This document shows, piece by piece, positions 15,716 through 61,132 of a stretch of DNA of 64,000 nucleotides (positions are counted from its first letter, which is position 1; each line of letters opens with the position of its first letter). The notes under the pieces are model-generated. The model saw only the letters and a list, made by a program, of their open reading frames with translations, ran no database searches and was not told the DNA's origin. The DNA is from Antedon mediterranea. Its lineage: Eukaryota > Echinodermata > Crinoidea > Comatulida > Antedonidae. The position numbers were made by a program, and so were the translations under genes. The DNA lies in NCBI RefSeq assembly GCF_964355755.1, contig NC_092677.1, forward strand, positions 1,059,001 to 1,123,000, given 5' to 3'.

Positions 15716-15829
15716 TCAAATGTCACTCTGGACGCTTGAATACTGTGTCTCTGGTTTTGTGCGAATATTTTCATCCTGTTTACCAGGATTGTTAAGATCC
15801 AGCTCAGCATATGCCAGTTGCTCTACGTT
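15716..15829 (-). CDS. Gene D last exon: ITIM + ITSM tail
   Basis: Acceptor GATGTAG, phase 0, 37 residues then TGA. LAYAEL at residues 5-10 fits (I/V/L/S)xYxx(I/V/L), and TQYSSV at 28-33 fits TxYxx(V/I). Homologous to gene G 36317-36201, with the same two motifs and IRTxPET in between. Confidence 0.85.
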   Translation of the reverse strand, partial: NVEQLAYAELDLNNPGKQDENIRTKPETQYSSVQSDI

Positions 15830-18800
15830 CTACATCAAGCAAATAGTACAATTTAAATATTATTATGATCCTAATTATAAATATTTTCAGTATTGTTTAG
15901 GTCGAATGTTTGATGGGCGGCGTTATTGGAAAAACCGTTGTTGATGCCAAGAATTTGTTAAAATTACACGTCTTTACTTACAGCCCCAGATTTCTTTGAA
16001 TCACTTGGTTTCGGCTTTTGGACGTATGCAGTACCATAACCACCAGTTAAACCTATTAATTCAGAGGTGTCTTTTGTGGTTATTACATTTCCAGCGGAGG
16101 TCCTAACCAAGTAAATGAAATTACATGAAATGGAATTATGTGATAATAATGTATGTGCAATTACTAGTAAATTATAGAATGAGTGCATAATAATTAATAA
16201 AAATACAGTACAGTATTTACATTTTGTTACCTGTGTTTTTTTTTTATAATAATACTTACACCCTCTCACTGAAACAATATTTTTTTCCTGTAAGAAGAAA
16301 TAGCAAAAAAAAAAAAAAAGTTTTGGCGAGAGGAAAAACTATATTTGACAATTCTGCTTTTATTTTCTATGGAATGGAGAGATTGTTTTCTTATATTCAG
16401 TAATTCATTAATTATAATTTCCTGTTATTCGTTTCACGGGAACGTCTCTTCTCAGTTAGGGGTGTACACTGAATAGGGGTGTCCTACATAGTTTAATGGT
16501 ACTGAGGTATAAGAAGCCCACTCATAATTATTTAGAATACATTTTACGAAAGGAACTACTTCACTACTACTAGGTTAGGTTCACACCCAAAACATTACTT
16601 ATCATTTTTATTAAAGGTGTTTGTGGAAAGCCGATTTATGATTGGTTTTTTGAATGGGATACATTTTAACTGAATTACTTTTTCTTATTATATTCTATGA
16701 GATAATTATTCTAAAAAAAATATTGAAAAGGATAGTTTTCAATTGGGTAAATCTTCAATTACAGTATCTCATGTATGTAGATAAAATTGCCAGAATATTT
16801 TTAAAGGGAATGTTTAAAGTTTTACGTTAATAGCCTACCAAAATTAGATATCCTGTAACACAGGCCTAAAAGGCTACAATAAAAGAATGCTACAGTATTC
16901 TTCATTTGAATTTTTGAACCTCCTAAATGCTTTTAAACCTAATAGAAAACGTCATATTCAATTTAGTAATTTTTTGTTATTAATATTCACACATTCTTAT
17001 CAATAACTTTATTCACAAACATGATTTTTTTAAATATAAAAACTATATATATATCAAATATTTTTTTTATTAATAATGTATGTTTTTGTTGTTTAGTAAT
17101 GTATTTTTGTTGTTTAATAATGTATTTTTGTTACATTAAAATTGTTTCACTACTGATATAACTTATAACTCTTGTTAGAGGACGTTTTTCTCGTTATAAT
17201 TACCGGTACGATTTTGTAGACAATATTCTTTGTAATTTGCAGATACACACTATTTAAAGGGAAATGTTATTATTGCTTTATGTTAATTGAACTTAACATT
17301 TTCGCAGTATGTAATACGTGAATAATTGATTATTATCCTATTTATATTATTGTTTCTTAGATTAGTAGTAGGCCTACTTTATTGGTATACATGACACCTG
17401 TTTTAAGGTCAACTATTCATTTTTCCAATTGTATAAGTTAAAACTATTAACTTACTACCAAAGATAAAGCCAAAATATAGGCCTATAGCAAGCACTATCA
17501 ATACAATCGTTACTGGTATAACAATTCCAACTGTAAAAAATAATATAAATTATTAAGTAAAAACAACACGACATTATGTGTATAAAATTAACTCTCTTAA
17601 CTTTTGCTTAACATAACATATATATTTTATGGAAAGGCAAAAAATGTGATGAAACAACCGACCATACTCTGTGCATTGTATCTTTAATATTTTACACATT
17701 ACGTCTTATGTATATAATTCATCAATTCTTACGATACATATTTATGTTCAATGTTTATTCTCCATAACCAGTATTGCTAAACTAGTTGTTTGAAATAGAT
17801 GCTCAGCTGAGTAGTTGGTAAACGTTTTATCATAAATTAGTTTTTAACCAATTTATATTTTCTGAATAAGACTCACCTATAAGATCAGCACTTTGCCCAT
17901 CACTGGGATTATAGACATCACTAGCTGTAATATAAAGTTAAAATATTCTTGTGAAAACTTTATGCGGTACTAATCAAACGGAAAAAAAACCCCACAAAAG
18001 TTGTTTTATAATAATTATTTTACATTCTGTGTTATAAATGATGATAACGATGACAATGTTGAAGTGAATGGAAACTTCAGACATATGGCCATCGTGCATT
18101 TTCTTGTGCAGCACCCATTTTGTGGAATAAACTGCCAATCGACATAAAGACATCTGAAAACATCTTTCAAAACACGACTAAAACCCATTTTTACACAGAG
18201 GCATTTCCTGCTTAACTTTGTCAAGCGCCTTTGAACATTATTTCTATGGATACTGGCGCTATATAAATCTGATTGATTGATTGATATTTGACAAAATTGT
18301 GCAGCATTAGCAGCAGCATTAGAATTAGCAGTAGCATTAGCATTAGAAGCAGCAATAGCATTAGCATTAGCAGTAGCATTAGCAACAGCATTAGCATTAG
18401 CAGCAGCATTATCAGTAGCAGCATTAGCAGCAGCATTAGCATTAGCAGCAGCATTATCAGTAGCATTAGCATTAGCAGCAGCATTATCAGTAGCATTAGC
18501 AGCAGCATTAGCAGCAGCATTAGCAGCAGCATTAGCATTAGCAGTAGCATTAGCAACAGCATTAGCATTAGCAGCAGCATTATCAGTAGCAGCATTAGCA
18601 GCAGCATTAGCATTAGCAGCAGCATTATCAGTAGCATTAGCATTAGCAGCAGCATTATCAGTAGCATTAGCAGCAGCATTAGCATTAGCAGCAGCATTAT
18701 CAGTAGCATTAGCATTAGCAGCAGCAGCATTAGCAGCAGCATTAGCATTAGCAGCAGCATTATCAGTAGCATTAGCATTAGCAGCAGCATTAGCAGCAGC

Positions 18801-21458
18801 ATTAGCAGCAGCATTAGCATTAGCAGTAGCATTAGCAACAGCATTAGCATTAGAAGCAGCATTATCAGTAGCATTAGCAGCAGAATTAGTATTAGCAGCA
18901 GCAGCATTAGCAGCAGCAGCATTAGCATTAGCAGCAGCATTAGCAGCAGCATTAGCATTAGCAGTAGCATTAGCAACATCATTAGCAGCAGCATTAGCAG
19001 CATTATCATTAGCAGCAGCATTAGAGCATTAGCAGAAGCATTAGCAGTAGCATTAGCAGCAGCATTATCATTAGCAGCAGCATTAGAGCATTAGCAGCAG
19101 CATTAGCATTAGCAGCAGCATTATCATTAGCAGCAGTAGCAGTAGCATTAGCAGTTTCATTAGCATTAGCAGCAGCATTAGCAGCAGCATTAGCATTAGC
19201 ATTAGCAGCAGTAGCACAGCAGCAGCAGCAGCGGTGGCAGCAGTAGCACAGCAGCAGCAGCAGTAGTAGTACGTTTTTCATCTAAGAATGATGTTAAAGA
19301 TAATGGAATGTGTGTGTACTTACAGTCTAGTTTGAGTGAAGCAGTGTTGCTAAGTTTCCCTTGCATTCCACGATAAGCAGCATTCTCTGCTCTACACTGG
19401 TAATCTCCTTCATCTGATACATTTACTTTATTAATAATTAATGCTGAATCAGAATATGAATATTTGTCTGTATCAGCCGTATTAAGTATGACGTCACCTT
19501 TACACCATGTGACGGTAATGGGGGTTGGTACACCATCAAGTGAAGAACACGTAAACATTGCTGTTTCATTTACCATCACAGACAGTTCTTGAGGCTCCAA
19601 AACAGGGTTGTTTAGATCTGCAATGCACAGAACACATTACATAGCATGTTTTAATATTAATGTTCTTACTGTAGACCTACATTTGTTTCATCCACGAGTG
19701 AGATGATTACTAAAATTTAGCAAGCCAATCAATGTTTTTCTTTAGAGACATTCATTCATTCAGGCGCGCTTTACCTGACTACAGGTATAGTCCAAACTGT
19801 TCATGGTTTTTTAATAACTTGTACTTTCAACAATTTTATAAAATTAAGCAATAATGGTCAACAAAAAAATGTAATAATCTGAAAGTAGAGTAAATCTGAA
19901 ATTTTAAGCATGATAAATAAATTTAAAAATTATTATATAGACGATCCGATAGAATTTAAAAGTGTTAGGATTTTCTATGAATAATTGTGATATAAACTTA
20001 TTTCTAACTCACATTGTACCGTAAGTGAGGCATGGTCATTAGCGGAATTCTCTTTAGTCGTAGTGATTTTACAGAGATAGTTGCTAGTATCATTTACTTT
20101 AACATTGGTAATGATAAGATCGTTATCATTAGATAACCTATAACGACCATTAGTTGTCTGTCCTGTAGCCAATAGAGTGTCCCCTACTTGTTGACCATCT
20201 TGGTCAGCTTTTGTCCAAACCAGTTGTAACAATGAATCTGCTGTAACAAGTGTATAAATACACGATATTATTGCATCTTCAGCAACCTTTACTGTATCAG
20301 GAACCATGACCGTCACCGATGTAGGTTGTGCATTAACTAAAACATAAAAACGCCTTGAATGTTTACTTTTATGATTATGTAAAGTCAGACGTTGAATCTG
20401 TACATCAAATAAACAAAAGTTGTACGCTAAATGGAAATATAAGTTATATAAATATATAAAAAATAAAATCCTTGTAATTCAAATAATTCGAATTAACGGT
20501 AAACATTTTTGAAGATTTTGAAAACCAAACTAAAAAAAGTACCGACCGAGTTATTTATTTGAAACACAGCCCTCATAAATTATATGTATGTATGTATTAC
20601 TCATCTGACTCATCAGATAGAAGTTTAGGCATTTTTCTTCACCTCAAATCTTTCGGAAAACCTATCTGTCAGATAAAGCTTTCGAGATATTTAAAGTAAT
20701 AAATACTTTCTTACACAGTACTTTATTGTAAATACTTACGATTGACATCAAGTTTTCCATAATCTTCACCAGTTTCGCCAGATGAATCCACAATTCTACA
20801 CTGATAATACCCGTCATCAGGTAGGTCTATGTTTATAATGGTGAGAGTAGCCACACCAGTTTGAGGAGTTTCTATTGTGATATCAACTTGATATCTACTA
20901 TTTGGATTAGATATCAGAGTATTAACGAGGATATTCAACTCATCTCCTGCTGAAGTGCTATTCAACCATTGAACACTATAAAGTGTTCTTGTTGTATCAC
21001 TGAGTGTGTAGTAACACTTGATATTAGCATCTTCACCTAATGTTACATTGCTATTCTGTACACTGACTTTTGGAAGGGTATTTATTTGACTGTTTGTAAC
21101 TGAAAAATAGAAACAAGTGGTCATGGTAAGAGAGTAAGTTAACAGATGGGGTGGGACCCTTTTCCCTAAATTCGTCACTTCCCATTATGTAGAATCCACT
21201 GATTATTTTTCAAACCACAATATCAGAACACATAGATACAATTATATGAAATAATTACACCAAAGCCTATCGTTTATTTCATGTTTCTTTGTTTTTTTTA
21301 CAGAATTTCGTAATTGGGTGGGAGCTATTTCACTAGGACCAGAACAATTGCAATTTATATATTGATATCTATAAAATGTTGAAAATCAAAAACACCCCAG
21401 ATTTACCGTGCACTGCTGTAGCAACCAAAGCGATGAACATGAGATGTTGTGTGGTCAT
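15716..21458 (-). CDS. Gene D: inhibitory-type Ig receptor with ITIM and ITSM
   Basis: Exons in gene order: 21458-21407 signal peptide, 21099-20740 V(a), 20336-20013 V(b), 19617-19324 Ig, 17924-17877 stalk, 17530-17456 membrane helix, 16287-16260 linker, 16102-15982 proximal tail, 15829-15716 distal tail. Phases agree throughout (1-1; linker 1-2; tail 2-0; last 0). The distal tail has a textbook ITIM (LAYAEL) and an ITSM (TQYSSV), as in vertebrate receptors that recruit SHP phosphatases or SAP proteins. The gene starts about 1.2 kb from, and opposite to, gene E, which shares V(a). Inhibitory function is inferred from motifs. Confidence 0.85.
15982..16102 (-). CDS. Gene D exon: membrane-proximal tail
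   Basis: Phase 2 in, 0 out. Contains SELIGLTGGYGTAYVQK. It aligns with gene G 38952-38772 (SEVIGLTNDDDVTYAQVQK), but the ITIM of G has become TAYVQK here, losing the +3 hydrophobic residue. If the donor GTAAGT were not used the frame would end five codons later. Confidence 0.78.
16260..16287 (-). CDS. Gene D exon: small linker
   Basis: 28 bases, phase 1 to 2, acceptor TTCTTACAG, donor GTAAGT. Encodes basic residues after the helix (KKYCFSER). Confidence 0.62.
17456..17530 (-). CDS. Gene D exon: transmembrane helix
   Basis: 25 codons, phase 1-1. Reads VGIVIPVTIVLIVLAIGLYF, then GFIFG: an uninterrupted hydrophobic helix without charged residues. Same place as gene G 41911-41852. Confidence 0.8.
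17877..17924 (-). CDS. Gene D exon: short stalk
   Basis: 16 codons, phase 1-1, acceptor TATTACAG, donor GTGAGT. Ser/Asp/Pro-rich, ending ADLIG; the counterpart in G has the same length and ends GGLIG. Confidence 0.72.
   Translation of the reverse strand, partial: LVMSIIPVMGKVLIL
18030..18292 (+). mobile_element. 3' end of a non-LTR retrotransposon
   Basis: The plus strand reads APILWNKLPIDIKTSENIF, the common C-terminal block of CR1/L2/Jockey-type reverse-transcriptase proteins, then a GCGCTATATAAAT 3' end and a GATT microsatellite tail. Sits inside an intron of gene D, opposite in strand. Confidence 0.72.
18297..19275. repeat. GCA/TTA trinucleotide array, about 1 kb
   Basis: Nearly pure GCAGCATTAGCATTA-type triplets with a few GTA, ACA and ATC variants. 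Because every unit is a multiple of three and lacks stops in several frames, it produces long spurious open frames (poly-Leu/Met, poly-Ser/Ile, poly-Ala/Asn). It lies in a gene D intron, directly after the retrotransposon tail. Confidence 0.92.
19324..19617 (-). CDS. Gene D exon: Ig (I-type) domain
   Basis: 98 codons, phase 1-1. Core: AMFTCSSLDGVPTPITVTW and DEGDYQCRAENAAY. Same domain as G 47614-47318, F 56553-56843 and the decayed copy in H. Confidence 0.86.
20013..20336 (-). CDS. Gene D exon: V(b)-type Ig domain
   Basis: 108 codons, phase 1-1. Cysteines in IISCIYTL and NYLCKITT, C-strand LLQLVWTKAD. Homologous to the single V domain of G, F and H. Confidence 0.86.
20740..21099 (-). CDS. 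Gene D exon: V(a)-type Ig domain
   Basis: 120 codons, phase 1-1. Motifs NIKCYYTL, SVQWLNSTSAGDEL and DDGYYQCRIV. Clearly homologous to the V domain of gene E (GVQWYNSTSTGDEL, DDGYYQCRVV), roughly 60% identical by eye. No other gene in the window has V(a). Confidence 0.86.
21407..21458 (-). CDS. Gene D exon 1: signal peptide
   Basis: ATG, then LMFIALVATAVHG, donor GTAAAT, phase 1. The base run TTATTTTAG just upstream of the ATG looks like the acceptor of a 5'-UTR intron. Confidence 0.75.
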
Positions 21459-22674
21459 CTTGAATCAACCTAAAATAACAAGTATATTTACTAGTTACAT
21501 GAAAACAAATCACAAATAGAGGAAATACAAGTTTACTTCTTTACATGACGCTGGATGCAAGGAGGCAGGATTATATTTTTATTGTTTCTCCTTAAACACC
21601 AACCAACAAAACCCTTGAAAGTGATTATGCTCCTCGGTGGCTTAAATCTCATTATTCATCACTTTGACAACCACCACCCAGGATATCATGTGTCGCCTAT
21701 CACATTAATGCCTGTATATTGGAAGGTTCTACGATACAGGCGTCACACTCACATGTGAAAGACATACTGTGTACTATATCAAAGAATTCGCTATGAAACT
21801 GGACAAGTTTAGATACAGTACCGGGATAATCGGCTAAAATATGATGCAATAGAAAAGGTTTATAGTGCCGACGTATATGTTGAAGCAAGTCACTCAGAAA
21901 AAAAAGTATAATTGGCAGATGTGTTCATAAAAGTGTGTTTACTTTATGTATTTTGTGATGAAAGTGGGCTTAATCATTTCATAAGTAAAACTAATAATTA
22001 CAACCATGATTTGACCAATCGCTAGCATTAACATCGGTTCAGTTTCTGTTGGCAAGTCTCGTCCACGAATTTTTGTCGCCCTCTGCGTTCATTTTAACAC
22101 ACACACACAAAGTAATGTACTAGAACTGGAGTTCACTACGTGATATTTTCCCGACACTTAACAAAGTAAGTTGCTTCTTTTCGTAATATTAACATAAGTA
22201 TTACATAATAATATTATATATAATATAGCCAATGTAATAAAGGAGTGTATAGTAGGTTTCGATACTTCAGCTTTACTTAATGCAATATGAGTCCTACTTT
22301 CAAAATTCGATTATTAAGGAATGTTCTGCTTAAAATGCACACATACTACTGCTTGCATATGTACACTATTCAACGATCATTACCAATAGCAACGAACATT
22401 CTTTATTATTTAGGTATTGTATATATAATCATTTACGACCACCAATAAGCTATTTTTTCTAGCCAGAATAGATTTGCTATACGAGGTGGCTCTCATGCTG
22501 ACTTTAAAGAAGATAATCCAACATGAAGTGCTGTCGTCTCTTGAGAAAAGGTTTACCATTAGGCCTATAATAAAATGTACAATGTAAACTTACCATCCCC
22601 CAAATGTCACCACATTTATTTAATTCTAATTAACTAAAGCATGTTACTTCACTTTTTTTTTGCAGAGATTAAAA
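21459..22674. promoter_or_regulatory. Shared divergent 5' region of D and E
   Basis: The two start codons are 1,216 bases apart on opposite strands. Each ATG is preceded by an acceptor-like AG (a 5'-UTR intron in each), so the common promoter should lie in the middle. No TATA box or named factor site could be fixed by eye. Confidence 0.45.
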
Positions 22675-22726
22675 ATGACGATATATAAATGGGAGTTAAT
22701 TATCCTAATGTTTCAGATATGTGATG
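22675..22726 (+). CDS. Gene E exon 1: signal peptide
   Basis: ATG then a hydrophobic stretch (LIILMFQICDG), donor GTAAGT, phase 1. TTTGCAG ten bases upstream is a likely 5'-UTR intron acceptor. Confidence 0.75.
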
Positions 22727-25700
22727 GTAAGTATAACATTTATATTGATAGAAATATAGATATATAAGCTGCAATACCAATTCTTAATTCTTGGTTCTCA
22801 CTAGGACGTAACGCAAGGACGTGCAACGCAAGCGATTTAACCAATGACTAGCAATGGATTATTCTGTTGCTTGTCATTGATCAACTCACTTGCGTTGTGC
22901 TTAGGTCATTGTGATGAATCAAAGTGGGAACTGATGTGACAAATTCGGTTAAAATTTGATATATTTTTTTTTCAGTTATAAATAGCCAAACTCTTCCAAT
23001 AGTGAATGTACAAGACGTTGATGTTACATTAGGTGAAAATGCTCTTATCATCTGTAATTATACATTCATTGACGCAAGAACACTTCTCGGTGTTCAATGG
23101 TACAATAGCACATCAACAGGAGATGAGTTAAACCAACTCCTCAACTCCCAGATATCTTATTCAAATGGCAGATATACAGTTGTCGCCTCCAGACAATCTG
23201 CTCAAACTGGAACAGCTACTCTCACCATTGCAAACACAGTGTTGTCTGATGATGGATACTATCAATGTAGAGTTGTTGATTCATTTGCCGAGACTGGTGA
23301 ACATTTTGGAAAACTGAATGTTCAATGTAAGTATCAGTAATGCTATTGTGAATGCTTTTTCTTTGGTATAACATAGGCCTACACTATGCGACGGTTGTGG
23401 TTTATGTAAAGTAGTTACCTAGCCTAACATACCGATCGATAGTGTAGCTTGCGAGATTCACCATGGTAACCTAATATTTATTGAAGCACATAATTGTGGT
23501 ACGTTTATTACAATTTAAAAAAACTTAATTCCTAAACAACATTATAATAAAAATGTTTCCCATTTTTCTTAGATGTTTTATATTCTATAACATTCGTACG
23601 TGAAGTCGTCACCACCACAGGCGGTTGATCATTCACACAATATAACACATGTTAATTGTTTCAATTCAATTCAATTCAAATTCAAAATTCATCCCACACG
23701 GAGCAATTCAAATAAAAAGGTCTGGATTAAAATGATCTTACAAAATATACAAAATATCACAATACACTAGTAGGTTACAATATAACAAGAGTCAAAGTTC
23801 AAGAATTTAGAAGTCGGATGGCCACTGGCAAAAACGAATTTCTTTTCCGGTTTGTTTTACATGCCGGGCATCGAAAGCGACGCCCATGAGGCATAAGCTC
23901 GAAATCACTGAACAAGGCATGGTTAACATTGTTAGAATAGTTCTACTTTTTTATAGTTTTTCATTGGCATAATATGTAGAAACAATAATTATAATAATCC
24001 ATCCATCATCCGGAAACCGTATAATCGGACTAACTAGTAACATTATAAACACTCCCATATCCGGTAAATTTTTAAAATAAAACAAAGCAATCTCTATTAT
24101 GTCAATGGTGATGATTAATTAAAAAATAATAATATAAAACAGTATAAAAAGAGGCCTATATAATAATAGGCGTACATTCGAGTTTTAAAAACACATTTCT
24201 AATCTGTACAAGATTGGAAAGCCCTCATCGCGATCAAGCAAAGAGCGGGTTGACTCTCAAAGCAGCGCGTACGTTAAAAAATGTTATAATATTTGTTTTT
24301 CTATTATCTGAAAAATGTCTACGTGCGTCCATGCTTTTTGATTGAAGATACATATACATCAGTATTTCATATTAAATAAAAATATACCAATAACAATAAC
24401 ATAAAAACAATAACATCGAACAAATAACGCGTTGATATCACAGTAAAAACAAATAATATGTTACTATCTTTATGCCTCAATATCCATCAATCAATAATTG
24501 TATTTAATCCATGAAAGAGTGCGATAAGTTCTACAAACTATGTTCACATGCAAATGGAAATGTCTTATAATACATCTTACAGATATCGATGACGTCATAA
24601 TTGATATCAGTTCATCTACTGATAGATATTTTGATTTGACGTGTTCTGGAAATGGTAACCCGGTTCCTCAAATGGAACTCTACCATAACGGGGTCATCAT
24701 AGAAAAGGATACTTCAACAATGATAAGACACTCAAGAATGCAAGTAACAACAGATGACAGTGGAAACTATAGATGTATTGCTAGTAATAGTGTTGGACAA
24801 AAGGAAAGTGACGTCATAGAACTAAATTACTGTAAGTATAAACATGAGAATGGTCAGTCTCTTCCCAAGTTAGTCTCATTTACTATTTTTATGTTATTCA
24901 TTTATTTCACCACCAACAAACAAACACCAACAACACCACTACCACTACAACAGCTTAATATCCAGATGCAGTATGCAGATGACATTTCATTTATTAGCGA
25001 CTCAAAAGAACACATAACTAAAATAAAGAAAAAAGTAACAGAGAAATTAGCAGAATTCAATCTAAAGATAAACGAAAGTAAAACAGAAGAATACCTAATA
25101 GGAAGAAACACCGATAGTAAATGGGAAGAATGCAAATACCTCGGTAGTAACTTGGACACAGAAAAAGACATTAAAAGAAGAAAATCACTAGCAGCTATGG
25201 CATATAACAAGCTGAAGCCGTCGCTAGAACACAAAACGATGTCTATAGACGTGAAATCCCGTTTGTTTGACGCATACATAGCAAGTATTTTCTTATATAA
25301 CAGTGAACTCTGGGTACTAAACAAAAAATTACAAGAGAGTATAGATATATATCACAGGAAAATGTTGCGAAAGATGATAGATATTAAATTAACTGATAGA
25401 GTGTGTAACACGAAAATATACGAGATAACAAAACAAGAAGAATGGAGTAAAAGAATTAAACGAAGGAGACTAAAATGGTATGGACACATAATTAGATTAC
25501 CGGATGATACCTCAATCAAACAAACAATGAAGGAAACTAACAGGAAAGTAAAACGACCCGTAGAAAGACCAAGAAATAACTGGATGAATCAAATAAAGAA
25601 AGACTTACAAGGACTAGTAGACACTAACACAATAACAAACCATCCTGCCATAAACAGAAACAAATGGAAACAAATTGTGGAAAGCGTAATGTCGGAAGAC

Positions 25701-36200: not shown

Positions 36201-36317
36201 TTAACGTTTAATGCTGGGCTGAACGCTTGAATATGTTGTCTCTGGTTCTGTGCGAATAATTTTATTCCCTTTACCAGAATGACGATGATCCACTTCAACA
36301 TAAGTCAGTTCTGCGTT
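36201..36317 (-). CDS. Gene G last exon: ITIM + ITSM tail
   Basis: Phase 0, acceptor GATGTAG, 38 residues then TAA. LTYVEV at 4-9 (ITIM) and TTYSSV at 27-32 (ITSM), homologous to gene D 15829-15716 at the same spacing. Confidence 0.85.
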   Translation of the reverse strand, partial: NAELTYVEVDHRHSGKGNKIIRTEPETTYSSVQPSIKR

Positions 36318-45300: not shown

Positions 45301-48300
45301 CCACATTTTATTCAAAATAAAAAAAAAAAATTTTTTTTTAATTAGTCAAAGGGACAATACATCTTTAATAGATAATATCTGGTTTATGGTTTGCTTATAT
45401 TAAAATGCAGTTTTGGAATGAACACTATGAAATTAGCACAGCTTCTTCTAAAGAAAGTGTACAACAATCTATACAAGATAAGTGCTATATTAAGATTAAA
45501 AATAGAAATTCAGACAGTGTAAGGACCATTGTACAAACTCCTACCATAAATGACTCAACATTAATCAAAATAGTACTAGGATTAGGATACAATAGAATCT
45601 ATTGAAACAAAATTTAAAGCTTTATATTATGGTTATAGTGGAAGGACATAATAGTAATTATATTCATCACTTAAGTTATTTGAAGCATATTTGGATGGAA
45701 GTTAACGGACTTGATTAATAATACTGTACTGCTAGATAGTTCTTAATTTTGCTATAAAAACAAACCAATACTTTAAGCTAAACAGTTGTGCATGCACCAA
45801 TATTTAATTAGCTTTTAAACACATTGCAGTAGTTTAAAGCACTATTAATACTTATAAGAAATATTTACAGTACCATTTTGCATAGGTACAGTATATCGTT
45901 TATCATTCAAATCACACTACAGTCAAAAAAATATATACTATACAATGTGTTTAACTTGAGACAACAATTGTTTTTGAACACCAGTAACTAATGCCTGAAA
46001 TAAAACTGGAGGTCCCAAATTATACAAAAACACTAACTTTTTATTTTGTAGAACCAGACAATGTTATACTTTAAAACATTTATTGCTTTGAATAATACTG
46101 TACAACCAAATGGTATGTATACAATCTAGTATAATAATTAATAGGAAAGTTGTAGTGACTATTAGTAAACTTAATAATTAGTTTTCAATAATTCTAAATT
46201 CCATTTATTGGACAAGCTTCCCAAATGTATACTAATAAGAGTAAGAACTTGTACTGGAAGTGTGTAATGATAGCATATAAAATAAAGCATATTATTAAAA
46301 TACAGGAGCAGGTCCAGGGGTAGGAGCTACTATAGGCACCAATGTGTGATCCAACAGTTTTCAGAACACAAATAATTCAACAATACAGTACAATCATCAA
46401 CATAAACATGATTATGAAACTGTTATGCCTCTCCTTTGTAGGCACCTCGGTCATACTGTCACAAAGTCCAAATCTGCTCCTGTATTCAACTATGTGTGCT
46501 ACTAACTACATGTATTTATACATGAAATCTATTACACATACTACTTACGTGGTGGTTCTGTTGTTTTAGGAGTAGTAGTCAACACTGAAAATCAAATTTT
46601 ATTTGATATAACTAAAACTAACATCTACAGTGGTGGATCCATAATTCACTATTCAAATTTGGCAGTGACATGTTTAAAGAACAATTTGTCTACTGATTGC
46701 AAAACTCTTAACTGGGTTCCATGACCTTTACATCATCATCATTTATATACATTTTCATATCCAAATCAAGAAAGTGCTTTTGTTTGCCATGAAGAAATCT
46801 TTCATCAAAATAAAGAAAGTTGTTTTTTTTTAAATTTTATACAAATTTGTTCTGAGAAAAGAATACAAGAATTACTGTCGGCCTAAAATAATTTTTTAAA
46901 CTTTATTTACTAAAACAATTTTGTTTCTCTCTCTAATTGTAATTTCATAATTATTCACCAAAAAAATACATGAAGAATAAATCTGTTCAGTGAAGCTTAA
47001 CAATGAATCAGGACATTGAGCAATAAGAAATTCAAATTACAAAACTAATACTGTAATTAGCATTTATTTTTACACAAAAAATAAAATGCAATGATACTGT
47101 ATAGTGTCAAATCACAATATGATTTCAATGGTTTCAAAATAATACTTGTACCAATGTACAGTATAGTTTAACCTGGTATACTGTATACAATACATAAATA
47201 GACAATGAATAAAAACACACCAAAACAACAAAAGCTTTGATTAGTGATGAAATACTTTCTGTATGATTTCAAATGAATAATTTGAAATGTTATTTAATAT
47301 TAGTAATTTGTACTTACGTTCCAATGTGAGTTTAGCAGTATTACTAAGTTTTCCGTTTGTTCCACTGTAAGCAGCATTCTCTGCTCTACACTGATACATT
47401 CCTTCATCTTCTTCAACAATGTTATTAATCGTTAATGTTGCATCAGAAGACGGATACTTGTCTGTATTAGAAACACCAAGTGGATTGCCATCTTTGATCC
47501 ATGTTGTGACAGTAATTGGTGTTGGTAAACCTTCAAGTTTAGTACATGTAAATGTCGCTGTTTTATTTAATGTGGCATAGAATTCTACTGGTTGCAAATC
47601 TGGTACTTCAAGATCTGAAATGGCAAAAATTATACTGTACAGTTCTTGGATAATCATTTGTTTAGAATTACACAATTGACATTTCTACCAATTAGTTTAC
47701 TACTACTAATACAGTAATTGTTAATGTTTAGTACTCTTTGACAATATAACACATACATAGGATATTGAATATTCATTTGGTTCTGATGTAAATAACATCC
47801 CTGCATTATAATTTAATAATTTAAATATCATACATTGTTTTAAAGATTAAATTTGTAAATTATATACCGTACATTATACTCTAAAAAGCAAACACATCAA
47901 TTGGGAAGTAAATTACCATCATACCACTGAAATAGATGATGATACTTTTTTATTTTTATCCAAATTATTGGTTTCATTTTTTTTTCTGATTGTGAAACTT
48001 ATGATTCAAAGATGAAATTAAAATTACTGTACTAACTGACATGTATTGTACAGTACCTGAAATAAACATATTTAAATAAATTTAAAAAAATCCTTTTTAC
48101 TATTAAAAATACTCACAATAGACTGTGAGATTAGCAAAGTTTTCAGCACTATTTCCACCAACGGTGCTAACGCTACAACGATAGTTGTCTGCGTCACCTC
48201 TCACAACATCAGTTATTATAAGATTATCATTGGACAAACTGTATCGATCATTGTTTGGTTGTCCTGTAGTGACAAGAGCACTTCCTACTGCTTGTCCACT

Positions 48301-48870
48301 GTCGTCAGCTTTTGCCCAAGCCAGTTGTAGCAATGAATCATTTGGTTCAAGTGTATAAGTACACGTCATTGTTGCAGCTTCATCAACTTTTGCTGTACCA
48401 GCATCCACTGTCACTTGTGTTTGTGCACATGTATCTGAAACTAAATTAAGAAATTAAATTAATAATTACAACTTATTTTATTAGTTTATTGAAAATAATG
48501 TTCCTTTTAATACTAAAGCTTGGTTCCCACAAAGCAAAGTAATGTAAAGTAGGCAAGTGAGTTGACCAATCACAAGTGACAGTTCGGATGACGCTTTTCG
48601 TCATGATTGGTTAAATTACTAATGGTGGGCATATATCGTTGTTGCGTTGTGTACAAGAGGACCAAAAACTTCAGTAGTAAACAAACTAACATAATATTTA
48701 ATATGATAAAAGAGGGATTTGAGATAAAGAAATTCAAAGAATTCAAAATTTGCAACAGCACTGGTCTCTTTTGTTTTCAATTTTAACAATGTATTGAATG
48801 ATTTAATGTACTTACCAAACATCAAAAGCAACATGATTAAACACTGATGATACATTACATTTATAGTCAT
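36201..48870 (-). CDS. Gene G: inhibitory-type Ig receptor with two ITIMs and an ITSM
   Basis: Exons in gene order: 48870-48816 signal peptide, 48434-48117 V(b), 47614-47318 Ig, 46584-46549 Thr/Pro stalk, 44657-44604 possible stalk, 42698-42651 stalk, 41911-41852 helix, 41206-41185 linker, 38952-38772 proximal tail, 36317-36201 distal tail. Phases match gene D exon by exon. The tail has VTYAQV, LTYVEV and TTYSSV. G begins about 2 kb from, and opposite to, gene F, whose V domain is almost identical. Predicted inhibitory member of a receptor pair; the ligand is unknown. Confidence 0.85.
36571..37451. repeat. 40-bp tandem array, about 22 copies
   Basis: Unit: AAGTCTATGTCTACGTGTTA / CTTCCTAGAGGGATCCAAGC, with GGGAACC variants. 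It resembles the right end of the AAGCTTGG MITE (GCGTCTACGT ... CTAGTGGGAACCAAGC), so it may have grown from a MITE terminus. Lies in the last intron of G. Confidence 0.92.
37513..37953. mobile_element. MITE with about 65-bp terminal inverted repeats
   Basis: The left end CATTTTAATTCATAAACCGA and the right end TCGGTTTATGAATTAAAATG are exact complements; pairing continues through TTCAACTAAATCACCGACTA. No coding capacity. It sits right after the 40-bp array; the 60 bases before it hold a weaker version of the same end (TTCTTAAACCGGAC). Confidence 0.82.
38772..38952 (-). CDS. Gene G exon: membrane-proximal tail with ITIM
   Basis: 60 codons, phase 2-0. After EVIGLTNDDD comes VTYAQV, a perfect ITIM of the type found in KIR and LILRB tails, followed by a Lys/Pro/Glu-rich linker. 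The homologous exon of D has lost this motif. Confidence 0.83.
39530..39945. repeat. GAT and CCA microsatellites
   Basis: A (GAT)n-rich block around 39530-39740 and a CACCACCACC run at about 39866-39892, inside an intron of G. Confidence 0.75.
41185..41206 (-). CDS. Gene G exon: small linker
   Basis: 22 bases, phase 1-2, acceptor ATGTACAG, donor GTGAGT. Counterpart of D 16287-16260, six bases shorter, so the frame is unchanged. Confidence 0.62.
41852..41911 (-). CDS. Gene G exon: transmembrane helix
   Basis: 20 codons, phase 1-1: VVSAVSVVLVFIGIFVCY, a plain hydrophobic helix with no charge, ending at an Arg codon split by the intron. Confidence 0.78.
42651..42698 (-). CDS. Gene G exon: stalk
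   Basis: 16 codons, phase 1-1: Pro/Asp-rich (VPTDPPESVNGGLI). Same size and position as D 17924-17877. Confidence 0.72.
44604..44657 (-). CDS. Possible Thr/Ser stalk exon of gene G
   Basis: 18 codons, phase 1-1, between ATCACAG and GTATGT. Thr/Ser-rich (ITLTESISAMTLST), as expected of a stalk. No paralog seen, so it could be chance. Confidence 0.4.
44815..45368. mobile_element. MITE with TTAAAGATGTATTGTCCCTT ends
   Basis: Left end TTAAAGATGTATTGTCCCTT at 44815; right end AAGGGACAATACATCTTTAA finishing at 45368. Flanked by TA-rich sequence. One end of the same family is seen at 3790 in gene A. In an intron of G. Confidence 0.82.
46549..46584 (-). CDS. Gene G exon: Thr/Pro stalk
   Basis: 12 codons, phase 1-1, acceptor ATTTTCAG, donor GTAAGT. 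LTTTPKTTEPP is a probable O-glycosylated stalk. A further Pro-rich stretch (APTPGPAP) on the same strand near 46315-46345 may be another stalk exon, but I could not fit splice phases. Confidence 0.6.
47318..47614 (-). CDS. Gene G exon: Ig (I-type) domain
   Basis: 99 codons, phase 1-1. TATFTCTKLEGLPTPITVTT then W, and DEGMYQCRAENAAYSG. One extra Thr codon before the Trp relative to F. Visibly more diverged from the F copy than the V exon is. Confidence 0.87.
48117..48434 (-). CDS. Gene G exon: V(b)-type Ig domain
   Basis: 106 codons, phase 1-1. Core: ATMTCTYTL, LLQLAWAKADD and DADNYRCSVS. Differs from the F exon 55721-56038 at only about three residues (QTQ/QAT near the start, QAV/QVV in the middle). 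Confidence 0.9.
48516..48665. mobile_element. AAGCTTGG-family MITE in intron 1 of G
   Basis: AAGCTTGGTTCCCACA ... AGTTGACCAATCAC and ... GTTGCGTTGT at the far side match the intron 1 elements of C and E. The right end has decayed. Confidence 0.68.
48816..48870 (-). CDS. Gene G exon 1: signal peptide
   Basis: ATG, then a hydrophobic run CLIMLLLMFG, donor GTAAGT, phase 1. A second in-frame ATG five codons on could also start. TTTCAACAG upstream looks like a 5'-UTR acceptor. Confidence 0.75.
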
Positions 48871-50832: not shown

Positions 50833-50872
50833 ATGATGACTTTTTGTTTGCTGCTATTTTTTCTTGTATTTG
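50833..50872 (+). CDS. Gene F exon 1: signal peptide
   Basis: Two tandem ATG codons, then FCLLLFFLVFG, donor GTAAGT, phase 1, compatible with the V exon at 55721. It is separated from it by nested retrotransposons. Confidence 0.65.
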
Positions 50873-53800
50873 GTAAGTACCAGGCTGTAACTAAGAAAAC
50901 ATTTGATTTTCAATTTTTGGTATATACACATTTAAAATCCTCATATAGTTTATACGTAGGTAGGCCTTATAGTACGTACCTTTCCGTCATTGTTTGAGAT
51001 ACAAATAATCATCATGCATGTTATTTCCGGATTTATAGAGGTGGTTCTAACTTAGGTTAACAATTATAAAAGTAAACTATTAATTACAAAATCTTGGAAT
51101 TTGCCGGACCACTGGTTTGGTTTGTGTGAGAGCCCAGAACAGAAAACACAATAATAATAATGTTAAATTTACTAAAGCGCAAAATGCAGGACACCTAAGC
51201 GCTGAACAATCAACGGAAGAAAGAAGAGCAAAAACTAAAGAAAATGCAATTTAAAAAGGTGGGATTTCAGGAGTTGTTTGAATGCTGTGAGTGATTCAGC
51301 ATTCCTGATATTGGAAGGGCGTTCCACAGAACAGCCGCTGACCATGAAAAGGCACGTTGTCCATAAAATTTTGTTAAAGGCTGTGTAGGTATAGGCCTGA
51401 GTAAAATCTCAGATGATGAAAGTAATGAGAAGAATTTTAAACATTTTCTCTTCTCAACTGGCAACCAATGTAGATGTTGCAATACTGGTGTTATGTTTTG
51501 ACATATTGGGATGCGAAGAACCAGACGGGCAGCAATGTTCTGTCTCTGAAGCCATTTCTAAGTTAATAAACGTACATAAATCTCCTGGACCTTACAATAT
51601 TTCTCCTTCACTTCTTAAATTAGCTGGTCCTGTTATCTCTTCATATCTTACTAACATCTATATCACTTTCTCTTGGCCAAGTTCCACATGATTGGAAAAG
51701 GGCTAATGTTGTACCAGTTTTCAAATCAGGTAATCGTGCAACACTTAAAAACTATCGACCTATTTCTCTTTGCTCTATTCCTTGTAAACTCTTAGAAGGA
51801 CTTCTTTCTACCCATATTAACACTCACTTAACTAATATATGTTATATATATATATATTGCTCAAGTCTCCCAACTTTACCATCACCTTGCTTCTAATCTT
51901 GATAAACGTAATTCTCATAAAACCGATGATATATTTCTGGATTGGTCCAAGGCCTTTGATAAGATTTCTCATACTCTTCTTCTTCAAAAAATTCACAACT
52001 ATGGTTTCTCTGTGGCTCTACACTTAATTGGATTTCCTCTTACCTAATTGGTCGGTCACAGAGAGTGCTTTTTAATGGTTCCTCCTCCAATTGGGCCCAT
52101 GTAACATCTGGGGTTCCACAGGGATCTCTACTAGGCCCTTTGTTATTTAATATTTTTGTTTCGGATCTTTCCTCTACTCCTCAATCTAATATTCTCCAAT
52201 ATGCTGATGACACTGTTGTCTTCAAGAATATTCAATCTAACTCTGATTCCCTTATCCTACAATCTGATCTTGACAATATTCTTTCTTGGTCCAACGTAAA
52301 TAAAATGTCACTTAACATCAATAAATGTAAAGTTATGCACGTTTCTCGCTCTCGAAATCCCACTCTCTACCCTTAGGCCTATACTCTTAATGATATCTCT
52401 CTATCTCTAACTAACAGCCATAAATACCTTGGCATTCCCCTTAATAGTACCCTTTCCTGGCACGACCACATTTTAGCTGTTCACTCTTCTGCCTCCAGGA
52501 CTTTAGGATTTATCCGTCGTACTGTTGGTACCAATGACTCTCATTCTCTTCTTCTGCTTTACAAATCCTTATGTAGTCCGATTCTGGAATATGGTGCTCC
52601 TGTGTGGTTTCCACATTTGGCTTCCCATCTTAATCTCCTTGAAAAACCTCAACGCATTCTTACAAGATACTTTTTTCCAGGTAAACACTTCGAACGTCCT
52701 ACTTACGCCAAAAGATTAGCTCTCCTTCATCTTCCTTCTTTGGCTTCTCGGATTGATTTCCAAACTATTATCTTTGTTGTCAAATGTGTATACACTATTA
52801 TTGATCTCGATGTTTCTTCTTTTTTTTCTCCTATTTCTCGTCACAAATTATTAATTTATTTTTTCTCGTCATTTATTTTATATTTTTATTATATTTTATT
52901 TATGTTAAAGGAAAGTCTTTAAACAGCGATTTGGGTTCGCTTGTGACAATCCTGGCTTTTTGTTTCATTATATATTTTTATGTTTTCTGTTGTAATTGTA
53001 ATGAGCCGATATTGAATAAATCAAATCAAAAACACGTTGAACCACGCGATAGCTTTAGCTGAAAGCCCACAAAGAAGAGAGTTGCAAGAGTCTAGCCTGG
53101 ATGAAACAAATGCATGGACCATGAGTATTTCTGTCGATTTAGGGTCTAAATACTTTCGAACATGTCAAATCTTGCGAATGGAATTCATTGCAGATTTGCA
53201 CACTTTGTCAACATGAGCAGACAAATTGAAGATGGGGTAATCAAAGAGTTACCAATTTTAAAAGAGAGTATCCAGTCTGAAGGTCAGATAGCGAGACGTG
53301 AAATGAATCAATTCAGTCTTGGCATCGTTCAGTACAAGCATGTTATGTGTACACAATGATTTGATTTCGGCGATGCAAGTTTCAAGCTTTTTCACAGCCC
53401 TTTCACGATCTTTGGGCTGGAATGCAATATAGGGCTGGGTGTCGTCAGCATAGACCATGAACTGCACACCATGTGCGGCAATGATGTCTTGTAATGGGGC
53501 GGTGAACAGGATGAACATATGCTAATTGGACCGATGACAGAGCCTTGAGGGATGCCAAAATTAATTGGAACTGGATCAGACATTGTAGAGTTGATTTCAA
53601 TGGAGTAAGTTCTGCCATTTAGGTAAGATGAAAACCAATTTATAGCAGAGTACCGTTAATACCGTAACGTGAGAAAAGGCGACGTAGGAGCTGTGAATGG
53701 TCTATAGTATCAAATGCAGCACTGAAATCGAGGAAGACAAGCAGCACATCCATGCGTTTATCCACAGCAGTCAAGATGTCATTCTGTACTCGCAGTAATG

Positions 53801-56800
53801 CAGATTCTACACTATAGCCTCGACGGTAAGCTGACTGTCTAGGAGCGAATAGATTATATTCCTCAAGATACGATTGCAGCTGTTTAGTGACGACCCTTTC
53901 AATGATCTTTCCCAGGAAAGGGAGGTTTGATATTGAACGATAACTTGATAGCTCTTCGGTGCTAAGGGATTGGCCCTTCAACAATGGAATAATGCTAGCA
54001 TGTTTGCGAGAAGATGGAAAGACGCCAAAATTCAATGATGCGTTCACTATCTTTGTTATGGCTGGTAAGAGCGTTTGGATGCAGGAACGGTAAATGGTAA
54101 GATGTAGAGGGTCTTGAGAGCAGGAAGTGATGTTAGATGAATTAATGATTTTGTAAATGAATTTGTTAATGAAGTTGGAAGATTTGTTAATTGGTGTGAA
54201 GATATGAACTTAATACTTAATATTACTAAAACCAAAGAGATGATAATAGATTTTCGTAAAACTGCAGTTGAACATAATGTAATAACTATTAAAGGAACCG
54301 AGGTTGAAAGAGTAACCCAATACAAATACTTAGGTACTATAAATGACAACAAATTAAAATGGGAGTCAAACTCTCTCATGATTTCCAAGAAGGCATCTCA
54401 AAGGCTCTACTTTCTCAGAAAACTCAAGCAAATTAGAGTTGATAACACTATTTTAATTCTATTTTATCAAAGTATTATTCAAAGTATTTTATCTTTTAGC
54501 ATTGGATGTTTTTATGGTAACTTTACTGAAAATGATAAGAAAAATATTGAGAGACCACGTAAAATTGCACAACGTATTATTAAAGCTGATCTTACGCCTT
54601 GTTCATTTATCTATGAAAAGAGTATTCTAAAAAAAGTAAACAATATTATGAAAGACCCCACTCATCCGTTACATTACTGTTATAACTTAAATAGATCAGG
54701 CATTAGGCTACGACCTCCAAGAGCAAATCTTTGTAGAACTAGAAAATCCTTCGCTGTAAATAGCATTCATATTTTTAATTCTAATGTAAGACGTTAATGC
54801 AATTTTTAATAGTTTTACATTTTTAACAGTATTTTTAACTTTTTATCTTGTATTTTTAATCTGTTATTATACTGTACGTTTTTAAATTGTTGCAATATTA
54901 TTGTTTTAATCTACCAAGCAAAGTGAATTTCCATTTTTATGGACAAATAAAATTTCTTGAATCTCTTGAATCTTGAATCTTGAATCTTAAGTACTTCATC
55001 TTCATGAACCGCACTGAACATATTAAAAAAGGAAGTTCTGTATGTTTTTGATTCAGCAGCAATTGTAATTTGTTGTTAATTTGTGGCAATTAAGTTCCGG
55101 TAAAGTCTCTTAACCTTGGATGAGAAAAAGCTTGCAAATGAATCAGCAAGATCTTTAGAGTTGTCATGACTAGGAACAGGGTGAGATGATATTGATGTAA
55201 GTTTGTCTATAACACGGAATAAATTTCTCTGGTCTAAACTCGTTATTATATTACTGTGATAATCAGTCTTTGCTCCGATTAGTAGCAATCTATATTTATT
55301 GCATTGTGCTAAGTAGATTTGTTTATCTATCTCTGATTTAGATTTTTGTTCGTTCTTTTTTTGCAACGCGATGAATATCTGCATACCAAGGTGAATGTGG
55401 ACGTGGGACGTTTCACAGGGAGAGCGTGTGTGTTTAATGTAGAACCTAGAACAATAGAAAGAATGCATTCACTAGAATTGTGATTGTTGTCGTCTTTCTC
55501 ATTTTAATACTTTGAAGAATAATGTTATCAATTAATCAAATTTATTCACCTCCCTTAGGAGAAACATATAAAAACTGTAAAAAAACACATCAAAATGAAG
55601 ATTCACACGAATCATAAAAAGATTAAAATGGTTCAACAAGTTAAATAAAGTGTCAAAATCATTGTGAAAAGGGCAGACTTGTTATATTCAAAAGCAAGTA
55701 AAGTAACTTATTAGTTTCAGATACATGTGCACAAGCGACAGTGACAGTGGATGCTGGTACAGCAAAAGTTGATGAAGCTGCAACAATGACGTGTACTTAT
55801 ACACTTGAACCAAATGATTCATTGCTACAACTGGCTTGGGCAAAAGCTGACGACAGTGGACAAGTAGTAGGAAGTGCTCTTGTCACTACAGGACAACCAA
55901 ACAATGATCGATACAGTTTGTCCAATGATAATCTTATAATAACTGATGTTGTGAGAGGTGACGCAGACAACTATCGTTGTAGCGTTAGCACCGTTGGTGG
56001 AAATAGTGCTGAAAACTTTGCTAATCTCACAGTCTATTGTGAGTATTTTTAATAGTAAAAAGGATTTTTTTAAATTTATTTAAATATGTTTATTTCAGGT
56101 ACTGTACAATACATGTCAGTTAGTACAGTAATTTTAATTTCATCTTTGAATCATAAGTTTCACAATCAGAAAAAAAAATGAAACCAATAATTTGGATAAA
56201 AAGTAAAAGATATATCATCATCTATTGTGATATTCAATTTATTTTGGTGGTATGATGGTAATTAACTTTCCAATTTATGTGTTTGCTTTTTAGAGTATAA
56301 TGTACATAATTTACAAATTTAATCTAAAAAATGTATATATAATATGATATATAAAGTGAAAAGCAATTATAATGCAGGGATGTTATTTACATCAGAACCA
56401 AACGAATATTCAATATCCTATGTATGTATTATATTGTCAAAGAAGAGTACTAAACATTAACAATTACTGTATTACAATTGTAGACATGTCAATTGTGTAA
56501 TTCTAAACAAATGATAATGCAAGAACTGTACAGTATAATTTTGCCATTTCAGATCTTGAAGTACCAGATTTGAAACCAGTAGAATTGCATGCCACATTAA
56601 ATGAAACAGCGATATTTACATGTTCTGAACTTGAAGGTTTACCAACACCAATTACTATCACATGGATCAAAGTTGGCAATCCACTTGATGTTTCTAATAC
56701 AGACAAGTATCCAACTTCTGATGCAACATTGACGATTAATAACGTTGATGAGACAGATGAAGGAATGTATCAGTGTAGAGCAGAGAATGCTGCTTACAGT

Positions 56801-57922
56801 GGAATAGATGGGAAACTTAGTAATACTGCCACACTGTCAATAGGTTGGTGGGAATAAACATTTTAATAAATAATGTATTTTATTAGCATCATTGTATAAG
56901 TATTTTCTGCATGTCATAATTATAAATGGAATATTCATATTACAGTATATTATGTCATGTGGTAACAAAAATAAAGCACAGCGAAAACAGCGATAACTGA
57001 AAGTTTTAGTTTATTAAAGTCATTTTTATAAAATGAACGCATGACGTGTCGGATTATTGCTTGTTTATTTTCTATTTCTTTAGCATTGGCGACAACTTCT
57101 TTTATATCCAGTAAGTCAACTACACGTAGGTTTCGTTTGTTTGCACTGCATTGTAAATTTCCGGGATTTTGAATTTGCGAAAAAAAAGGATAGCAATTAA
57201 AAGGGATATCCCTGCCCCATCCCCATGATCTGTATCATGCCTTAAAAGGGAAAATAATGTCAACAGTACATTATTGTAAACATGTTTAAAACACGGCATG
57301 GTAACACGATCCTTCTGTATTATTTGTTCAGTTTTAAGTACAGAAGTTCCAAAGAGAGAGAATGATTGTAATTCAACTGGTCTTGTTGTTGGAATGACGT
57401 TTGTTGGTGTGCTCATTGGATTCATTCTCTGTTTGCTTGTGTGTTTTATCATCAGCAAAATAAAGAAATCACATGCACAGGTAAAGTATAATTCAGAACG
57501 TAGAACCAAAAGCAAAAGTGTAGACTTAAAATGACCAAAGTTTAATGAAATACCGCACACTTAAGTAATAGAAACTATTTTAACATTAAATATGATTTTT
57601 TATTTTGAAGGTACCGACATCGAAAAACACCAACCAATCAGGGGTAAGGATGTTACTTCAACTTTAAGTATTCAATTTCACTCGTCGTCGTCATCATCAT
57701 CATTATTATCACTATTGCCACCAATATATCAATAAAGGTTTACACGATTTTCATTCTTTTTTTTGCATGCACTAAACTTTTGTATTTTTTTAGCTGCAGG
57801 CGTATATGACTTATACTGGGGAGACAGATAAAGATACAAGCCACACATACCAAGATTTACAGAAGAAAGAAGATAATCAAGCTGTATATGTAAATGTTAA
57901 AGCAAAAAAGGACAAAAAATAA
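50833..57922 (+). CDS. Gene F: Ig receptor with YVNV tail, partner of G
   Basis: Exons: 50833-50872 signal peptide, 55721-56038 V(b), 56553-56843 Ig, 57084-57110 stalk, 57332-57480 membrane, 57611-57643 linker, 57800-57922 tail. All open and in phase. Intron 1 is 4.8 kb and filled with nested non-LTR retrotransposons, so joining the signal exon to the V exon is the least certain step. The V domain is almost the same as that of the divergent gene G, but the tail is of the A/E type (YMTY, TYQDLQ, VYVNVKA). An AATAAA lies at 57936-57941, 14 bases past the stop. Predicted activating-type partner of G. Confidence 0.83.
51490..53035 (+). mobile_element. Plus-strand non-LTR retrotransposon fragment
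   Basis: Degenerate RT domain: HKSPGPYNISPSLLKLAG, then GVPQGSLLGPLLFNIFVSDL and QYADDTVVFK, followed by KCKVMHVSRS. The 3' end is AATAAATCAAATCAAAA near 53035. Inserted into the minus-strand element, in intron 1 of F. Frameshifts make it inactive. Confidence 0.78.
54118..55000 (+). mobile_element. Plus-strand non-LTR retrotransposon 3' fragment
   Basis: A 197-codon open frame (54204-54797) with ILNITKTKEMIIDFRKT, TQYKYLGT and RLYFLRKLKQ gives the C-terminal RT region. The 3' end runs into a (TTGAATC)n tail at about 54957-54987. It splits the minus-strand element between VHEDEVLK and DPLHLTIYRS. Confidence 0.78.
55721..56038 (+). CDS. Gene F exon 2: V(b)-type Ig domain
   Basis: 106 codons, phase 1-1, same length as G 48434-48117 with about three replacements. 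The following intron is also nearly identical to that of G over much of its 0.5 kb, whereas similarity stops just upstream of this exon. Confidence 0.9.
56553..56843 (+). CDS. Gene F exon 3: Ig (I-type) domain
   Basis: 97 codons, phase 1-1. AIFTCSELEGLPTPITITW and DEGMYQCRAENAAYSG. The donor is a weak GTTGGT; the H copy has the same GTTGGT at that place. Confidence 0.82.
57084..57110 (+). CDS. Gene F exon 4: short stalk
   Basis: Nine codons, phase 1-1, acceptor TTCTTTAG, donor GTAAGT (LATTSFIS). Conserved in H at 61106-61132, which supports it as a real exon. Confidence 0.68.
57332..57480 (+). CDS. Gene F exon 5: transmembrane segment
   Basis: Phase 1-0. ENDCNSTGLVVGMTFVGVLI then GFILCLLVCFIISKIKK. 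Acceptor TTGTTCAG, donor GTAAAG. Two further copies lie at 61375 and 63308. Confidence 0.86.
57611..57643 (+). CDS. Gene F exon 6: linker
   Basis: 11 codons, phase 0-0 (VPTSKNTNQSG), donor GTAAGG; copies in H and in the orphan cassette. Confidence 0.75.
57800..57922 (+). CDS. Gene F last exon: tyrosine-motif tail
   Basis: 40 residues then TAA. YMTY at 2-5, HTYQDLQ at 15-21, VYVNVKA at 29-35, Lys-rich end. An alternative acceptor six bases upstream (TTTTAG/CTGCAG) would add two residues. Confidence 0.86.
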   Translation, partial: AYMTYTGETDKDTSHTYQDLQKKEDNQAVYVNVKAKKDKK

Positions 57923-61105: not shown

Positions 61106-61132
61106 CACTGACGACAACATCTTTTATATCCA
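61106..61132 (+). CDS. Gene H stalk exon copy
   Basis: Nine codons (LTTTSFIS), same splice signals as F 57084-57110. Confidence 0.6.

Follow-up and report, generated by a model that had tools for sequence, protein, structure and literature searches.

Head-to-head immunoglobulin receptor genes with opposed predicted tails and a shared V exon in the crinoid Antedon mediterranea

Known paired receptors and the crinoid locus

Paired receptors whose ligand-binding exons evolve in concert typify vertebrate innate immunity and are accounted for by pathogens that exploit inhibitory receptors. We describe here four receptor genes, D, E, G and F, from a 64,000-nucleotide stretch of the Antedon mediterranea genome (C8:1059001-1123000, where C8 is contig NC_092677.1; hereafter the window). 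They belong to a tandem array of V-set/I-set receptor genes that is, on balance, probably organised like a vertebrate paired-receptor cluster. The same marks outside vertebrates, namely tails with immunoreceptor tyrosine-based inhibitory and switch motifs (ITIM/ITSM) set against activating-type tails, strand segregation and V-exon-restricted conversion, would point to repeated evolution of this solution, for which the D/E/G/F locus offers a concrete test case.

The closest described system is that of the Xenopus CEACAM genes, where ITIM/ITSM genes and genes with tails like the immunoreceptor tyrosine-based activation motif (ITAM) are oppositely oriented and only the V exon undergoes conversion (PMC5112662); the mammalian paired receptors CEACAM1/CEACAM3 are similar (PMC2832619). 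The crinoid locus shares with them the ITIM/ITSM and ITAM-like tails carried by the receptors themselves, the opposite orientation and the conversion restricted to the V (N) exon. It differs in being invertebrate, in its YxxL..YxNV tail, in its ratio of ~70 activating-type genes to a handful of inhibitory ones, and in having a Vb exon followed by an I-set exon. CEACAM N domains were some among many V-set matches and none was singled out, probably a generic V-set likeness rather than orthology. The AlphaFold2 (AF2) model of Vb is a high-confidence V-set with the V domains of nectin, CEACAM, PD-1 and TIGIT as structural neighbours, and those of Va are antibody light chain, T-cell receptor V-alpha, Dpr/DIP and SIRP. 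The Siglec-5/14, KIR, LILR, SIRP and PILR receptors also combine similar ectodomains, opposed signalling and clustered genes, but most of their activating members use a charged transmembrane residue for DAP12-type adaptors, which E and F lack.

Among invertebrates, the fester co-receptors (FcoR) of Botryllus likewise form a large linked family of type I proteins that combine a V-type immunoglobulin (Ig) domain with an ITIM or hemITAM tail. Their pairs, however, consist of FF, with no known signalling domain, and FcoR, and some loci carry opposite motifs by allele or splicing (PMC12065747), whereas here each of the opposite tails belongs to a gene of its own, in opposite orientation. The Alr cluster of Hydractinia (41 genes, as cited in PMC11999971) is a comparably large set of V-set/I-set receptors, and ITIM and ITAM are reported for Hydractinia candidate allorecognition genes (PMC12065747); no report of V-exon conversion between opposite-tail Alr neighbours was found in the literature searched. 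The Ig receptor CgIgIT2 of the invertebrate Crassostrea gigas has a tyrosine motif of activating type, but it is a single receptor with five Ig domains and no paired inhibitory partner mentioned there (PMC11999971). No echinoderm paired receptors were found in the open literature, most subscription papers being outside its coverage. The claim that this layout has no described invertebrate equivalent, made in an original prediction from the same DNA, was thus overstated as regards the motifs, which Botryllus FcoR (PMC12065747) and Hydractinia Alr are reported to carry. Inhibitory and activating Ig receptors are already known in invertebrates; what was not found in the open literature searched is separate, oppositely oriented, V-matched genes.

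D, E, G and F are four intact type I Ig receptors, with AG/GT at all junctions, exon chains that are open and in phase, and a stop codon; their V-set and I-set domains score above the cut-off in Pfam. On the minus strand, D (15716-21458, 470 aa) encodes a signal peptide, Va, Vb, the I-set domain Ic, a stalk, a transmembrane segment and three cytoplasmic exons, and G (36201-48870, 395 aa) a signal peptide, Vb, Ic, three stalk exons, a transmembrane segment and three cytoplasmic exons. On the plus strand, E (22675-29242, 408 aa) has a signal peptide, Va, two further Ig-like domains, a transmembrane segment and a tail, and F (50833-57922, 326 aa) a signal peptide, Vb, Ic, a stalk, a transmembrane segment and a tail. 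These exon-by-exon models confirm that D and E, and G and F, start back to back, at distances of 1,216 bp and 1,962 bp, respectively. The assignment of Va to D/E and Vb to G/F was right as to V class and incomplete for D, which carries both domains.

The V exon shared by G and F

G and F have V exons that are 98.4% identical in nucleotides and 99% in amino acids, and the next 163 bp of intron are 100% identical. The rest of intron 2 is 88-94% identical and Ic 90%, and the introns outside this segment align at ~45%, i.e. they are unrelated. The comparison of F with two near plus-strand siblings gives the reverse pattern, with V at 88%, intron 2 at 94-97% and Ic at 97-99%. In the aligned V codons G and F differ by no synonymous and one nonsynonymous change, against seven synonymous changes in Ic; the mismatch contrast is strong (Fisher p 2e-10). 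Chance does not account for this likeness, a run of 66 polymorphic sites shared by G and F having been reached in 0 of 5000 permutations. G and F are sisters in the maximum-likelihood (ML) tree of Vb (support 96/85), and the V exon nearest to that of G in the whole genome searched (354 Mb, 18 contigs) is that of the adjacent, opposite-tail gene F.

As read from these alignments, gene conversion limited to the V exon has copied it between an inhibitory gene and an oppositely oriented gene of activating type. Copying from G to F would be the simpler direction, because the flanks of F match the array while its V exon matches G. The proposal that opposed tails sit on homologous V domains is therefore borne out, and for G/F the case is stronger than had been claimed, the V exon being recently homogenised; by its molecular evolution, G/F is a real pair. 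A single recent inverted duplication covering the full 5' half could explain 91% identity across 1.1 kb in inverted orientation, but it is very unlikely, as the homology ends at the V-Ic cassette with no homologous flanks, and divergence is clearly higher in Ic and in most of intron 2 than in the V exon. A recent inverted duplication of the whole gene was rejected for the same lack of related flanking introns.

Conversion may also be widespread. Synonymous divergence (dS) between F and its paralogue par1 is 0.17 in V and 0 in Ic, and between par1 and par2 0.19 and 0.03; V exons thus seem to be exchanged generally across the array, since the plus genes differ mainly in the V exon. This keeps alive a neutral explanation, in which inverted near-repeats convert regardless of function, V exons are swapped array-wide and the G/F tract is silent on signalling roles. 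The other close plus paralogues, which likewise diverge mainly in V, speak for it, as does a mean ratio of nonsynonymous to synonymous divergence (dN/dS) in V of just 0.94, without clear positive selection; strong positive selection on V was rejected on this value, which is not >1. Against it, the top genome-wide match of G is precisely its opposite-tail neighbour and the tract spans almost exactly the V exon, but with a sample of one. We regard neutral homogenisation as rather unlikely.

Copy number and strand across the array

In the 0.6 Mb of array around the window there are ~70 YVNV tails, all on the plus strand. YVNV-type tails gave 79 matches genome-wide, some of which are split fragments; all matches within C8:0.6-1.66 Mb, the interval scanned for tail strand, lie on the plus strand. 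ITIM tails comprise D and G, intact in the main array, one truncated copy, and one gene and one degenerate copy at 0.72 Mb, all on the minus strand. Neither a plus-strand ITIM tail nor a minus-strand YVNV tail was found within C8:0.6-1.66 Mb, and the V exons are overwhelmingly on the plus strand.

These counts overturn the idea that the pair is the duplicating unit: with ~70 YVNV genes alone on the plus strand and few ITIM genes (two intact in the main array), the unit is the plus gene, and the pair is ruled out by strand and copy number genome-wide. Nor can the repeated geometry serve as independent evidence, because with all inhibitory genes on minus and all activating-type genes on plus, any minus-then-plus neighbours are head-to-head; the layout by itself carries little weight.

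Head-to-head sets with a common V class occur at two other places: M-minus/M-plus at C8:1348-1362 kb and a set at 16142-16172 kb of contig C11. M-minus (C8:1342-1351 kb) is a D/G hybrid with a D-like signal peptide and Va and a G-like stalk and transmembrane segment, 85-95% identical to G in DNA, and a minisatellite lies where the homology to G stops. No sign of V-exon gene conversion was seen between M-minus and M-plus. The C11 set consists of minus-strand Va and Vb fragments and a plus-strand E-like gene with a divergent tail; it was rejected as a second full inhibitory/activating pair, as a search down to 16114 kb revealed no Ic, transmembrane or ITIM exon on the minus strand. The ITIM tail at C8:721 kb is accompanied by a divergent V-like exon (729 kb), and a degenerate second minus-strand tail copy lies at 718 kb. 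A segmental duplication (9815-19617 of the window and C8:1040001-1059000) contains gene C and the 3' half of D, and the V-less D copy adjoins gene A; C8:1049-1058 kb was accordingly dismissed as a third pair, being a truncated D duplicate without V exons. At C8:4.7-5.8 Mb there is another large group of I-set exons resembling Ic, on both strands and ~30-40% identical to Ic of D.

Predicted tails, the proposed system and gene models

The motifs LAYAEL..TQYSSV of D and LTYVEV..TTYSSV of G, as well as VTYAQV in the preceding G exon, all fit the consensus [SIVL]xYxx[IVL] or TxYxx[VI]. They are kept among D, G and the third minus-strand tail at C8:721 kb (LQYADL..TTYASI) despite ~50% tail divergence. 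The plus tails read TYQEL-x8-YVNV in E and TYQDL-x9-YVNV in F, each preceded by YxxY. Phosphorylated YxN is a Grb2-type binding site, and YVNV is a classical Grb2-SH2 ligand, as in Shc. The E/F-type tail is most likely a Grb2-type site within ITAM-like spacing; to call it ITAM-like, as had been done, is correct for the spacing and overstated for the motif, YxxL..YxNV not being a strict ITAM. The tail of gene C (13734-13820) keeps the YxxL spacing and ends in YHSV, not YVNV.

In the model that we propose, the few minus-strand inhibitory genes (D and G) would recruit an SHP2-type SH2 phosphatase through phosphorylated ITIM/ITSM tyrosines. The genome encodes SHP2, with SH2-SH2-PTP exons at C3:14097618-14104506 and PTPN11 as the top PDB match (E 1e-41). 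The phosphorylated YxxL..YxNV of the dozens of plus genes (E, F and paralogues) would recruit Grb2-type adaptors most likely and Syk-type kinases possibly, giving a positive or uptake signal. Because the V exon was copied between them, G and F would most likely bind the same ligand(s); closeness and inverted orientation may have favoured the conversion, and the receptors would be co-expressed and have an immune role. A broader version, which we put forward tentatively and hold to be slightly more doubtful than probable, is a paired-receptor system that arose independently in an invertebrate, with V exons circulating by conversion among the few minus ITIM/ITSM receptors and the ~70 plus receptors with Grb2-type tails, repeatedly re-matching an inhibitory receptor to an activating neighbour.

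Several observations weigh against the paired-receptor model. A single recent conversion event was found between genes with opposite tails, and no recent V-exon conversion was seen in D/E. The Va domains of D and E are ~61% identical in amino acids, and each has closer or equally close relatives elsewhere, the closest matches being C11-plus and C8:1182 kb for D and C8:1036 and 1022 kb for E. The ML tree leaves their sister relation open, a D+E constraint not being rejected (approximately unbiased test, p 0.52), so that the predicted grouping of V domains within each pair stands for G/F and not for D/E as a matched pair; D and E belong to one V class but are more loosely matched. The ITIM exons of M-minus were not found, i.e. 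the ITIM tail is lost, and M-plus is a pseudogene interrupted by stops. For the minus tail at C8:721 kb, no plus partner could be recognised within 14 kb of its nearest V-like exon, to 744 kb. No charged residue was found in the hydrophobic stretch of the E and F transmembrane exons, making pairing with a DAP12-kind adaptor unlikely. Lastly, a strict ITAM (Yxx[LI]-x6-12-Yxx[LI]) is present in only 2 of 33 sampled plus-type tails (as YVNI), neither of them E or F.

The plus tails might then not be activating at all, with YxxL as an endocytic signal, YVNV as a Grb2 site whose output is growth-factor-like or scaffolding, and no opposed signalling. The scarcity of strict ITAMs fits this, as do Asn at Y+2, near-invariant in the same 33 tails, the rare Leu/Ile at Y+3, and the standing of YVNV as a Grb2-SH2 ligand. 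The YxxL-x8-10-YxNV spacing nevertheless resembles that of an ITAM, and CEACAM3-type 'ITAM-like' motifs mediate uptake in vertebrates; we consider a non-activating tail doubtful. It is similarly improbable, in our estimate, that the receptors of the array serve adhesion or allorecognition (cf. Hydractinia Alr, Botryllus FcoR) rather than paired pathogen sensing, with tails that tune cell-contact signalling. The modelled V domains do resemble adhesion domains of nectins, CEACAMs and Dpr/DIP, and invertebrate allorecognition is known to involve V/I-set families that are large, lineage-specific and equipped with ITIM or hemITAM tails (PMC12065747), but V-exon conversion fits either function.

The features behind the paired-receptor model are listed in Table 1. 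F could have been taken for a headless pseudogene, and its first exon had been placed beside the V exon; it lies at 50833, beyond a ~4.3 kb insertion with reverse-transcriptase open reading frames (ORFs) in intron 1, which rules out the pseudogene. The paralogue at C8:1143 kb is without this insert, yet matches the window on both sides of it.

Table 1. Exons and other features of D, E, G and F (window coordinates; pLDDT, predicted local distance difference test)
Feature	Position	Strand	Basis or remark
D terminal exon, ITIM LAYAEL + ITSM TQYSSV, stop	15716..15829	-	50% identical to homologous G terminal exon, both motifs kept
D cytoplasmic exon, GTAYVQK, no ITIM	15982..16102	-	Homologue of G exon 38772-38952
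D short juxtamembrane exon, 28 nt	16260..16287	-	Gene model; preserves frame, canonical donor
D transmembrane exon	17459..17530	-	Gene model
D stalk exon	17877..17924	-	Gene model
D I-set domain Ic	19324..19617	-	Pfam, gene model
D second V-type domain Vb	20013..20336	-	Pfam, gene model
D first V-set domain Va	20740..21099	-	Pfam, gene model; AF2 pLDDT 86.5
D start codon, signal-peptide exon	21407..21458	-	Gene model
E start codon, signal-peptide exon	22675..22726	+	Gene model
E V-set domain Va	22976..23326	+	Pfam, gene model
E Ig domain Id	24583..24831	+	Pfam, gene model
E Ig-like domain Ie	26468..26728	+	Gene model
E transmembrane exon, no charged residue in membrane stretch	27227..27369	+	Gene model
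E cytoplasmic exon	27615..27659	+	Gene model
E terminal exon, YMEY, TYQEL, YVNV	29117..29242	+	Gene model, tail survey
G terminal exon, ITIM LTYVEV + ITSM TTYSSV, stop	36201..36317	-	Gene model
G cytoplasmic exon, extra ITIM VTYAQV	38772..38952	-	Gene model, genome search; sole copy found in genome
G short juxtamembrane exon	41185..41206	-	Gene model
G transmembrane exon	41852..41911	-	Gene model
G stalk exon 3	42651..42698	-	Gene model
G stalk exon 2	44604..44657	-	Gene model
G stalk exon 1	46549..46584	-	Gene model
G I-set domain Ic	47318..47614	-	Pfam, alignment; DNA 90% identical to F
G side of putative G/F conversion tract, V exon + ~163 bp intron 2	47954..48444	-	Alignment, permutation
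G V-type domain Vb	48117..48434	-	Alignment; DNA 98.4% identical to F; AF2 pLDDT 96.9
G start codon, signal-peptide exon	48816..48870	-	Gene model
F start codon, signal-peptide exon (MMTFCLLLFFLVF)	50833..50872	+	Homologous to signal exons of plus-strand paralogues
Insertion with reverse-transcriptase ORFs, F intron 1	51162..55451	.	Missing from paralogue at C8:1143 kb
F side of putative G/F conversion tract	55711..56201	+	Alignment, permutation
F V-type domain Vb	55721..56038	+	Pfam, gene model
F I-set domain Ic	56553..56843	+	Pfam, alignment; 97-99% identical to two near plus-strand paralogues, 90% to G
F stalk exon	57084..57110	+	Gene model
F transmembrane exon, no charged residue in membrane stretch	57332..57480	+	Gene model
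F cytoplasmic exon	57611..57643	+	Gene model
F terminal exon, YMTY, TYQDL, YVNV	57800..57922	+	Gene model, tail survey

The window has a GC content of ~26-36%, and its introns are large, with retroelement fragments. A search of the assembly for mitochondrial COX1, whose genetic code could have indicated the phylum, found none. A reverse-transcriptase-like ORF continues from the Id exon of E into the intron (24880-25712), and long simple or minisatellite arrays lie within introns of D (18285-19280), E (27700-29020) and G (36560-37460). Beyond F, gene H (59399-63188, plus strand) is a broken F paralogue with a stop in V and a frameshift in Ic; ~1.2 kb of DNA with 91.6% inverted repeats (61910-62135 / 62649-62881) interrupts its tail exon. 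An extra transmembrane/tail copy at 63307-63884 has a stop codon right after the transmembrane segment.

A common promoter for both pairs was rejected, as the D-E and G-F intergenic DNA is unrelated save for one short element. The sequence CTACTTTCAAAAT is identical upstream of E (22294-22306) and F (50747-50759) and near-identical in two plus-strand paralogues; 0.37 occurrences are expected on average in the window at up to 1 mismatch, and it may be a common promoter element.

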